Below are positions 4,051-6,954 of a DNA stretch of 37,181 bases, piece by piece. Source of the DNA: Pseudomonadota bacterium (lineage in GTDB: Bacteria; Desulfobacterota; Syntrophorhabdia; Syntrophorhabdales; Syntrophorhabdaceae). The DNA is taken from assembly GCA_026388275.1 (NCBI GenBank), contig JAPLKB010000045.1, positions 1 to 37,181 of the forward strand. The letters are read 5' to 3'. Each line of letters starts with the position of its first letter. Positions within the stretch are counted from its first letter, which is position 1. A program made the position numbers and the translations under genes. Under the pieces are notes generated by a model. The model saw only the letters and a program-made list of their open reading frames with translations. It made no database searches and was not told where the DNA came from.

Positions 4051-5412
4051 CTATACCGGTTTAGGATACTTCTCCAATTCTTTGACCAGCTTCGCGATCT
4101 CTTCATCCGGCAACGCATAGTCCTCAAGCTTCCCGGACAGATATGCATCGTATGATGCGAGGTCAATAATGCCATGACCACTCCAGTTCATCAGTATTAC
4201 CTTTTCTTTTCCTTCTTCTTTAGCCTTTTTTGCCTCATCAATCACACATGCTATGGCATGGTTTGTCTCCGGTGCAGGGATAAAGCCTTCTGTCCTGGCA
4301 AACGTGAGACCTGCGGCAAAGGTTTCCAGTTGAGAATATGCCCTTGCCTCTATGAGTCTGTCCATGACCAGCCGGCTGACAAGCGGAGCCATTCCATGAT
4401 ATCGCAGGCCCCCGGCATGAATCGGAGCAGGGACAAAATCATGGCCGATTGAATACATAGGCAGAAGCGGCGTTGTCTGGGCAGCATCGCCAAAATCATA
4501 TACATAGGGGCCTTTTGTCATAGTCGGGCACGAAACCGGCTCTGATGCAATAATCTTTACTTCTTTACCATGAATCTTATCCCTTACAAAGGGGAATGAG
4601 ACACCGGCAAAATTGCTGCCCCCGCCTGCGCAGCCGATCACAACATCGGGATACTCCCCGGCCATGGCAAGCTGTTTCTGCGCCTCAAGGCCTATGATTG
4701 TCTGGTGCATCATTACATGGTTCAAAACACTGCCGAGAGAATATTTTGAGTTCTCTGTGGTCACCGCATCTTCTATGGCCTCGCTTATAGCAATGCCAAG
4801 GCTGCCCGGGTGGTTTTCATTTCCTTCCAAATACTTCCGGCCGGCATTTGTATCAGGGCTTGGGCTTGGCACACATTTGGCGCCCCATGTCTCCATCATG
4901 ATTTTCCTGTAAGGTTTCTGGTTGAAACTCACCCGTACCATGTAAACTTTCAATTCAAGGCCGAACTGGTTGCATGCAAAGGCAAGCGCGCTTCCCCATT
5001 GTCCCGCACCGGTCTCTGTTGTAAGCCTCTTCGTGCCGAAGACCTTGTTGTAGTATGCCTGTGGAATAGCGGTATTGGGCTTGTGACTGCCGGGAGGGCT
5101 TACGCCCTCGTTCTTGAAATATATGTGAGCCGGAGTTTTGAGAAACTTCTCCAGGGCATATGCTCTGTATAGGGGAGTTGGCCGCCACATAAGAAGTTTT
5201 TCTACTACTTCATCGGGAATATCAATCCACCTCTCAGCGCTTACTTCCTGTTCAATCAGGTTCATGGGGAAGATGGGTGTAAGCATATCAGGCGTAATTG
5301 GTTCCCCTGTCGCAGGATTTAAAGGCGGGGGGAGAGGGTTAGGCAGATCAGCCTGAATGTTATACCATGCCCTTGGCATATCCTGTTCACTTAAAATAAT
5401 TTTCCTGTTCAT
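4051..5412 (-). CDS. trpB: tryptophan synthase beta chain-like protein (TrpB2 type)
   Basis: A 453-residue PLP enzyme of the TrpB2 subgroup, which condenses indole with serine (or O-phosphoserine in some members) to make tryptophan. The PLP Schiff-base lysine is K111 in GSHKPNTA. The phosphate-binding glycine loop is CAGGGSN at 261-267, and GAGQWG at 135-140 matches the family. The length and the extended N-terminus (about 75 residues before WRPTPLY) are typical of TrpB2 rather than the roughly 400-residue TrpB1. A strong AGGAGG precedes the ATG. No trpA is adjacent, consistent with a stand-alone indole-salvage enzyme. Transcription is apparently controlled by the Trp-rich leader and attenuator at 5431-5587. 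Confidence 0.93.
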
Positions 5413-5430
5413 GTGCTCCTCCTTTTTTTA

Positions 5431-5471
5431 GTAAATAAAAAGGCCATGGTCTTAATCAATCCCATGGCCTT
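5431..5471 (-). terminator. trpB: trp leader hairpin 2 (terminator-like)
   Basis: On the minus strand AAGGCCATGG and CCATGGCCTT form a 10-bp stem around a 12-nt loop, followed by TTTTTATTT. This is a good intrinsic terminator, about 20 bp before the trpB2 ribosome-binding site. Its 5' arm GCCATGG can also pair, with one G-U, with the 3' arm CCGTGGC of hairpin 1, so the two hairpins are mutually exclusive. Confidence 0.75.
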
Positions 5472-5478
5472 TTATAAC

Positions 5479-5513
5479 AAAAAAGCCACGGACGGTGTGA
5501 ATCCGCCCGTGGC
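5479..5513 (-). terminator. trpB: trp leader hairpin 1 (attenuator)
   Basis: An 11-bp stem (GCCACGGGCGG with CCGTCCGTGGC, one G-U pair) is followed by six T residues on the minus strand. Its loop region contains TTCACACC (5494-5501), complementary to GGTGTGAA (5527-5534) just after the leader-peptide stop codon. A ribosome finishing the leader would mask GGTGTGAA and let this terminator form. A ribosome stalled at the Trp codons would leave it free to disrupt the hairpin. The pairing is seen in the sequence; the switching is inferred from known trp attenuators. Confidence 0.75.
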
Positions 5514-5533
5514 CGGTTATTACGGTTTCACAC

Positions 5534-5587
5534 CTACGTCACCTGCCACCACCATACCCATATATTTTTTGCGGCTGCTTTTTCCAT
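5534..5587 (-). CDS. trpL: trp operon leader peptide
   Basis: A 17-codon ORF, MEKAAAKNIWVWWWQVT, ends in TAG at 5534-5536. Four of its 17 codons are UGG, three of them consecutive, and it sits directly upstream of mutually exclusive hairpins and trpB2, which is the classical layout of ribosome-mediated trp attenuation. Upstream in-frame stops leave ATG 5587 as the only start. No clear Shine-Dalgarno is present; the inferred transcription start is only about 3 nt before the ATG, so translation may be leaderless. The peptide itself is probably only a sensor of charged tRNA-Trp. Confidence 0.8.
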   Translation of the reverse strand: MEKAAAKNIWVWWWQVT

Positions 5588-5596
5588 ATTGTGTAA

Positions 5597-5625
5597 TCTT
5601 TAGCACGAAGATAATTTCATGTCAA
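5597..5625 (-). promoter_or_regulatory. sigma70 promoter of the trp leader
   Basis: Minus-strand TTGACA (5620-5625), a 17-bp spacer and TAAAGA (5597-5602) give a near-consensus promoter. Transcription would begin near 5590, a few bases before the leader-peptide ATG at 5587. Confidence 0.7.
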
Positions 5626-5712
5626 GGTTTTTCATTTTTATTGATTTACAATAACAGGGTTTTTTAACACTTTGAATTGCAACATCAAAATATCTGTGGT
5701 ATACCAGTGGGC

Positions 5713-6954
5713 ATGTTCACACGTAAAAGGCTCATAATATTGCTTTCACTCATAGGCCCTGGAATAATTACCTCTAATATAGATAACGATGCAGGCGGTA
5801 TTGCCATATATTCTATTGCCGGGGCGCACTACGGATACAACCTTCTGTGGACCCTGATCCCTATAGTTTTTTTTCTTATAGTATACCAGGAAATGTCTGC
5901 CCGGATGGGAGTAGTCACAGGTAAGGGTCTTGCCGATCTTATACGTGAGAAATATGGAATAAGAACCGCCTTCTGGGTTATGGTATGCCTCTTTTTCACA
6001 AACCTCGGCAACACTATGGCTGAATTTTCAGGATGGGCGGCGAGCATGGAACTTTTTAATGTATCCAAATACATTTCCGTGCCTCTGGGGGCTGTTTTTG
6101 TATGGTTTTTAGTCCGAAGGTGGAATTACAGCATATTTGAAAAAATATTTCTTTTTGTCTGTTTAATATATCTTACCTATATTTTTTCTGCATTCTCTGC
6201 AAAACCCGACTGGAAAGAGGTAATGGTCAAGACGGTAACGCCTTCCATACAATGGAACATGGATTACCTGATTATCGTAGTCAGTATTATAGGCACATCT
6301 ATTACTCCATGGCAGCAATTTTATCTCCAATCAAACGTCGTAGAAAAAGGTCTTAGTGAAAAGTACCTCTGGGCATCAAGATTTGACGTAATTTTCGGTT
6401 CTATTATGATGGGAGTCATTGCGTATTTTATTATAGTAGCCTGCGGTGCCACATTGTTTCCCGCAGGCATCAAGATAGATTCGGCAGAAAACGCGGCGCT
6501 ATCATTAAAGCCCCTGGCAGGAAAATATGCCTATATCCTTTTTGCTGTCGGCCTTGCTAATGCTTCGCTGTTTTCGGCATGTATTCTCCCGCTTGCCACA
6601 ACTTATTATATTTGTGAGGCCTTTGGCTGGGAAGCAGGCATAGGAAAAAGCTTTAAGGAAGCCCCCCAGTTTATGTCCATATTTACAATAATTGTAATAC
6701 TGGGCGCTTCATTTATACTGTTGCCGAATCTTCCCCTTATTAAAGTGATGTGGTTTTCTCAGATCATAAACTGTCTTCTTCTTCCGGTGGTTTTAGTATT
6801 TATGCTCCGGCTCATCAACAATAAAGATCTTATGGGTGAATTCAAAAACTCATTATGGACAAATATTATCTCATATATAAGCACAGCTCTCCTGATCATT
6901 TTAAGCGTCACGCTTCTTTTAAACACAATAGCCGATTTTTTCCGTGTCCATTGA
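5713..6954 (+). CDS. Nramp-family divalent metal transporter, non-canonical
   Basis: A 413-residue polytopic membrane protein with about 11 hydrophobic helices. The first helix (GPGIITSNIDNDAGG) aligns with the Nramp/SLC11 metal-binding TM1, but the usual DPGN is replaced by a DNDAGG-type sequence at 24-29. In the equivalent of TM6, GTSITPWQQF takes the place of the canonical region carrying the MPH motif, so the methionine that favours transition metals is absent. This resembles divergent Nramp relatives, some of which carry Mg2+ or other substrates. I prefer ATG 5713; a TTG at 5677 would add 12 residues and neither has a strong ribosome-binding site. It is transcribed divergently from the trp leader. 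Confidence 0.82.
   Translation: MFTRKRLIILLSLIGPGIITSNIDNDAGGIAIYSIAGAHYGYNLLWTLIPIVFFLIVYQEMSARMGVVTGKGLADLIREKYGIRTAFWVMVCLFFTNLGNTMAEFSGWAASMELFNVSKYISVPLGAVFVWFLVRRWNYSIFEKIFLFVCLIYLTYIFSAFSAKPDWKEVMVKTVTPSIQWNMDYLIIVVSIIGTSITPWQQFYLQSNVVEKGLSEKYLWASRFDVIFGSIMMGVIAYFIIVACGATLFPAGIKIDSAENAALSLKPLAGKYAYILFAVGLANASLFSACILPLATTYYICEAFGWEAGIGKSFKEAPQFMSIFTIIVILGASFILLPNLPLIKVMWFSQIINCLLLPVVLVFMLRLINNKDLMGEFKNSLWTNIISYISTALLIILSVTLLLNTIADFFRVH

Follow-up and report, generated by a model that had tools for sequence, protein, structure and literature searches.

The stand-alone tryptophan synthase gene trpB2 in the window, that is, in the whole 37,181-nucleotide stretch of DNA analysed here, is very probably controlled by a predicted ribosome-mediated transcription attenuator, which would make its expression dependent on charged tRNA-Trp. 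All of the attenuator elements lie on the minus strand inside positions 5431-5625, with the leader reading from high to low coordinates. The sequence holds an ORF with a run of Trp codons, a terminator-like hairpin ahead of the gene, and an alternative antiterminator pairing predicted to be gated by the ribosome. We consider Trp attenuation very well supported, because the Trp run, the covariation of the antiterminator, and the geometry of the stop and Trp codons are all conserved. The initial annotation had already proposed attenuation of the classical trp type, and this proposal stood up in an alignment of 30 trpB2 leaders, in which the Trp run, terminator, antiterminator and ribosome geometry are retained.

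The controlled gene (4051-5412, minus strand) encodes a 453-aa protein with a GSHKPNTA motif. Among curated models, the protein scored 741.8 bits with NF009057 (cut-off 366) and 666.9 bits with TIGR01415 (cut-off 518.85), and stayed under the cut-off of the TrpB1 model TIGR00263. Its nearest solved chains (6hul, 4qys and 6hte) are tryptophan synthase beta chains 1 or 2. Judged by its sequence, the gene is a TrpB2 of the stand-alone COG1350 type (PRK12391/TIGR01415), and the earlier description of a TrpB2 without an adjacent trpA was indeed correct: trpB2 lies outside the trp operon, while trpA and trpB1 sit elsewhere in the genome, within an aro-trp operon on contig C64 (aroE-aroA-aroC-trpE-trpG-trpD-trpC-(213-aa ORF)-trpB1-trpA). 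Just upstream of this run lies a DAHP synthase gene with a leader of its own, MQENINKYFGWWYFNASLHPRPH. Since the C64 run is separate, the usual Trp route is available to the cell, and trpB2 is additional. Named close relatives include Syntrophorhabdus sp. PtaB.Bin027, a genus placed in Thermodesulfobacteriota by NCBI, and several deltaproteobacterial bins. A strong Shine-Dalgarno sequence, AAGGAGGAG, can be read ahead of the gene (5416-5424, minus strand) and is kept in relatives.

Upstream, the putative promoter (5597-5625, minus strand) consists of a perfect -35 element TTGACA (5625-5620), a 17-nt spacer, and an extended -10 element TGC-TAAAGA (5605-5597), of which the TAAAGA hexamer (5602-5597, preceded by TGC) is weak. 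Most relatives carry TTGACA-N17-TG(T)GCTAA at an equal distance from the leader ATG. The initial annotation had called this a consensus promoter, which is accurate for the -35 element, the spacing and the conservation, but not for the weak -10 element, and a simple promoter scan of the window did not list it. Since the -10 element ends about 9 nt ahead of the leader ATG, the leader mRNA probably has no 5' untranslated region, or hardly any, and transcription is predicted to start at the AUG or a few bases from it.

The leader peptide ORF, MEKAAAKNIWVWWWQVT, comprises 17 codons and a TAG (5534-5587, minus strand; ATG at 5587-5585, stop at 5536-5534). Its four Trp codons, three of them consecutive, as had been noted before, are read directly from the sequence at 5560-5558 and 5554-5546 (TGG GTA TGG TGG TGG = WVWWW), and every aromatic codon of the leader is Trp. 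When the 300 nt ahead of trpB2 were shuffled 20,000 times with dinucleotide content kept, a short ORF with four Trp among five codons appeared once, so the cluster is not due to chance. Among the 27 family-level trpB2 loci for which upstream sequence was available, counting that of the window, 26 have a Trp-run leader ahead of the gene, as in MKKDTVKIQWIWWWQAM, MIKTAKRTNWAWWWLV and MTNAATNNWWWWRRL; the N-terminal part of the peptide varies, and the Trp run is constant. More distant trpB2 loci of the same order have WIWW, WWWW or a single Trp (L112, L114, L117, L121), and those in two other families have WHW (L119) or WAW (L128). A few trpB2 relatives have no recognisable Trp leader upstream (L017, L029, L111, L113 and others), which counts against Trp attenuation. 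In L017 (G005), the tandem hairpins are present with both facing arms changed (GGTC/GACC) and without a Trp run, and the leader seems to have been lost. In L004, L010, L013 and L015, about 80-360 nt of extra, partly repeat-like sequence separates the attenuator, which is kept, from trpB2.

Between the leader and the gene lie two hairpins on the minus strand. HP1 (5484-5514), with a 12-bp stem and a T-run at 5484-5479, is a putative first intrinsic terminator; HP2 (5438-5473), with 12 pairs and a T-run at 5441-5437, is a second, tandem terminator-like hairpin. A scan for terminator-like sites found 2, against 0.3 expected, both within HP1. The two hairpins had been described as mutually exclusive, a view open to checking by RNA folding. 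The region indeed folds far better than shuffled sequences (z-scores of -5.7 for 5600-5413 and -6.6 for the hairpin region), but HP1 and HP2 coexist in the minimum-energy fold, and the claim of exclusion has to be given up. HP1 is instead excluded by a pairing upstream, and HP1 and HP2 are predicted tandem terminators. This upstream pairing had been noticed in part, as GGTGTGAA with TTCACACC; it is real and extends to the antiterminator 5' strand A, GGTGTGAAACCG (5534-5523, minus strand), and the 3' strand B, CGGATTCACACC (5505-5494, minus strand), with one A.A mismatch. The first G of strand A is the last base of the stop codon, and strand B, placed by covariation and growing-RNA folding, spans the HP1 loop and its flanks.

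The alignment across relatives, which had been suggested as a check on the leader, confirmed both the conserved Trp codons and compensatory changes in the stems. Over the 30 trpB2 leaders, 98.3% of the A:B cells form a pair, and at 6 of the 12 pairs both partners have changed. Covariation as strong as this arose in 0 of 500 shuffles, and it vanished when one strand was shifted by 1-3 columns. HP1 is likewise paired in 98.3% of cells, with double changes at 6 pairs, and HP2 is paired in 94.9%. The geometry is conserved as well: the stop codon overlaps or abuts strand A in all 30 leaders, starting at -2 relative to A in 23 of them, at +4 in six and at -7 in one, and the last Trp codon ends 11 nt before A in 20 of the 30 and 8, 10 or 14 nt before it in the rest. 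If a ribosome covers some 15-16 nt counted from the P-site codon, as in the standard footprint, its edge should lie near 5535 when UGG-14 occupies the A site and near 5523, the exact end of A, when it has reached the stop codon.

We then folded the growing RNA at equilibrium with the ribosome in either position. With the ribosome at W14, A:B formed with a probability of 1 for emerged ends 5496-5488 and of 0.68 at 5486, whereas with the ribosome at the stop codon, HP1 formed with probabilities of 0.97 at 5488 and 1.00 at 5486. When charged tRNA-Trp is short, the ribosome would thus stall on UGG codons 12-14 with its front edge just before 5534, leaving strand A free to pair with B; A:B would disrupt HP1, and transcription would continue into trpB2. 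When Trp is plentiful, the ribosome would reach the stop codon and cover A, and HP1 would form and terminate the RNA polymerase. At equilibrium on the full RNA, HP1 is favoured over A:B, a point against attenuation. Since HP1 becomes the more stable structure once more RNA has emerged, the switch would have to be kinetic and depend on co-transcriptional timing. Classical attenuators are likewise understood to be kinetic, co-transcriptional switches.

Two other readings would dispense with a translated leader. Control of trpB2 by a tRNA-binding T-box, a TRAP-protein site or a tryptophan riboswitch has general precedent, since such systems control trp genes in other bacteria. However, all 4227 models of Rfam 15, run on the whole window, returned only a tRNA at the gathering cut-off, and no T-box or known Rfam leader, including RF01692, was thus matched there; 18 representative loci of the phylum yielded no Rfam leader family at that threshold either. 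Such systems would moreover not need a translated Trp-run ORF, and we regard this kind of control as highly unlikely. Alternatively, another transcript might end at the hairpins, or the hairpins might terminate transcription in both directions, and the Trp codons would be incidental. HP2 is a near-perfect palindrome between A and T runs and could therefore terminate from both sides, and the plus-strand neighbour (5677-6954, NRAMP-like) is divergent. Yet no minus-strand gene ends into the region from upstream, the Trp cluster is as improbable as the shuffles indicated, and the Trp run, stop codon and antiterminator keep a fixed spacing in the 30 leaders, making this explanation extremely improbable.

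Within Trp attenuation, the part played by HP2 is less settled. The HP1 3' arm D (5484-5491, minus strand) is complementary to the HP2 5' arm E (core 5469-5462; 3' arm core F, 5449-5442) and able to pair with it alternatively, so that an antiterminated HP1 could also block HP2. We propose such a relay because an unconditional HP2 would silence trpB2 even in starvation, because D and E are complementary, and because E is more conserved than its hairpin partner: E is nearly invariant (3 changes), whereas F carries 25 changes, sometimes with mismatches. A:B would open HP1, the freed D would capture E, and HP2 would be delayed or blocked, placing two terminators in series under the control of a single ribosome. 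Indeed, D:E is paired in 240 of 240 cells of the trpB2 set, and with A:B fixed, the growing RNA held D:E at a probability of 1 until an emerged end of 5444. D:E covariation was significant over 72 leaders, also at one leader per family (0/5000). The alternative is a plain single-terminator trp attenuator, which opposes only the relay and not Trp attenuation: HP1 would be the only regulated terminator, HP2 a fail-safe or leftover, and the D:E match a product of hairpin duplication or a shared lineage preference, either of which is possible. In line with this, native D:E pairs (253 of 256) hardly exceed partners swapped within a genome (250 of 256), permutations within single gene classes were mostly not significant, and in some relatives (L011, L014) HP2 is not followed by a good U-run. 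Against it stand the unequal conservation of E and F, the pairing of D:E in every cell, and the block that a constitutively strong HP2 would impose in starvation unless opened. Since little D:E signal remains within gene classes or against swaps, the relay is plausible but not proven; we hold its chance to be even or a little better, and that of the single-terminator attenuator to fall somewhat short of even.

We next searched 395 genomes of the phylum with a covariance model of the trpB2 leader that comprises the two hairpins and their flanks and nothing else. Matches at E < 1e-20 were confined to the window's family and a second family of the same order; many weaker ones followed, and 78 matches were read in all. 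About 70 of these precede amino acid genes with a fitting leader, and L169, L181, L186 and L191 were unconvincing. We therefore rejected the view that the weak matches are all chance tandem terminators. Since the model contained the hairpins and flanks only, the fit of codons to genes speaks largely independently for the weak matches being genuine. In one order within the phylum, 8 of 21 genomes gave matches. Checks of representatives with NCBIfam and Pfam identified the genes behind the matches. Leaders with Trp runs are found ahead of trpE, trpD, trpB2 and DAHP synthases of one kind. Those with Phe/Tyr(/Trp) runs stand before DAHP synthases of other kinds, before the DhnA-type ADH synthase (DhnA aldolase) and before aminotransferases. 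Leu-run leaders stand ahead of leuA, and two of them (L178 and L182, both FLAELLL) have the tandem-terminator layout, showing that this layout is not confined to aromatic amino acids.

Other targets concern uptake and activation. Phe-run leaders precede phenylacetate-CoA ligase (L195/L230, L204/L231, L218), which in L230 and L231 is followed by a LivK/LivH-type ABC transporter; this suggests that arylacetates may be taken up and activated for phenylalanine synthesis rather than degradation. Tyr/Phe-rich leaders also precede periplasmic binding proteins of the LivK/LivH type. Two of the strong matches (E < 1e-20), L133 (G004:C99:23243-23357) and L139 (G024:C4:38179-38289), have leaders ending in WAWWWRT and WRWQQIL, each before a TRAP transporter gene. 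A further Trp-rich leader with the same or a related attenuator, L202 (G001:C76:10795-10882), also precedes such a gene, and the TRAP genes behind all three are of the DctQ/DctP type. The Trp-rich leaders suggest that these transporters may serve tryptophan- or indole-related uptake. The homologue of the TRAP leader in the window's own genome (L187/L221, C11:20468) has neither a Trp run nor a second hairpin and appears to have decayed. Taken across the phylum, we regard as evenly balanced the wider proposal of a family of relay attenuators in which a single leader ribosome would control both terminators, the freed HP1 3' arm would capture the HP2 5' arm, the codon run alone would set the amino acid sensed, and the targets would be genes for making Trp, Phe/Tyr and Leu, for activating arylacetates and for uptake.

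Some leaders stand before genes of less obvious function. A Phe/Tyr-rich leader precedes an otherwise unknown GNAT-domain protein in the window's own genome (L226/L233, C38:42957-43064) and in L173, and the former gene is followed by one resembling an ADP-forming acyl-CoA synthetase; the GNAT-domain gene is a candidate for an unrecognised aromatic amino acid gene. The weak match L228 (own genome, C1:8073-8207) has an alternating Tyr-Cys leader, YCYCYCYC, before an acyl-CoA synthetase-like gene with CoA-binding and succinyl-CoA ligase-like domains.

Stand-alone TrpB2 was once proposed to be a serine deaminase (discussed in PMC1854888), and control by a Trp leader is regulatory evidence that the cell uses TrpB2 for making tryptophan. 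Furthermore, the RNA module is absent from Rfam, and the amino acid it senses can be read directly from the leader codons, so that, throughout a poorly cultured phylum, the substrates of unannotated genes and transporters become predictable, as with the Trp leaders before TRAP transporters and the Phe leaders before phenylacetate-CoA ligase and its ABC transporter. The tandem-terminator relay, if true, would offer a simple way to tighter off-states from one sensor.

Ribosome-mediated attenuation itself is a textbook mechanism. Both Proteobacteria and Actinobacteria are known to have trp genes preceded by Trp leaders (PMC1262725), and the window leader shares with E. coli trpL and S. meliloti trpLE(G) a short peptide with consecutive Trp codons, an antiterminator competing with a terminator, and a sensor of ribosome position (PMC7298713). 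The S. meliloti leader RNA begins at the AUG, a documented leaderless trpL (PMC7298713), as is likely for the window leader. Unlike classical trpL, however, the window attenuator targets a stand-alone COG1350 trpB2, has two tandem terminators with cross-complementary arms, and has an antiterminator strand that starts at the stop codon. In Bacteroidota, a Trp leader before trpB2 fits the described Bacteroid-trp leader RNA (Rfam RF01692), a predicted Trp leader (Weinberg et al. 2010, PMC2864571): the Bacteroidota trpB2 leader L100 scored 49.2 with this model (gathering 49), whereas the window leader and its relatives do not match. The Bacteroidota trpB2 loci L058, L098, L100, L110, L047 and L050 all have W-rich leaders and a terminator; since L100 alone reaches gathering, the RF01692 model may be too narrow. 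Among actinobacterial predicted attenuators with UGG runs, one lies ahead of the Corynebacterium diphtheriae operon trpB2A (Seliverstov et al. 2005, PMC1262725), where the gene that carries the name trpB2 shares its operon with trpA, unlike in the window.

A second terminator in tandem is common to the window layout and the rimP-leader, which, in the accessible part of its description, is not presented as a leader-peptide amino acid attenuator or with a relay pairing (Naville and Gautheret 2010, PMC2965389). In Geobacter, a related lineage, an RNA element was predicted 5' of the DAHP synthase gene Gmet_0346, and like the phylum leaders it precedes an aromatic-pathway gene; the passage that describes it names no mechanism (PMC2700814). 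It may be one of the tandem leaders of the phylum. Neither Rfam 15 nor the openly accessible papers searched yielded a described family matching the phylum leaders, and searches of the open literature gave no paper on leader peptides of trp genes in deltaproteobacteria, on those of tryptophan synthase in Bacteroidetes, or on tandem-terminator attenuators. We therefore rate the attenuation mechanism as already known and trpB2 as an attenuator target as mostly new outside Bacteroidota, while the tandem interlocked layout and the phylum-wide regulon look new.
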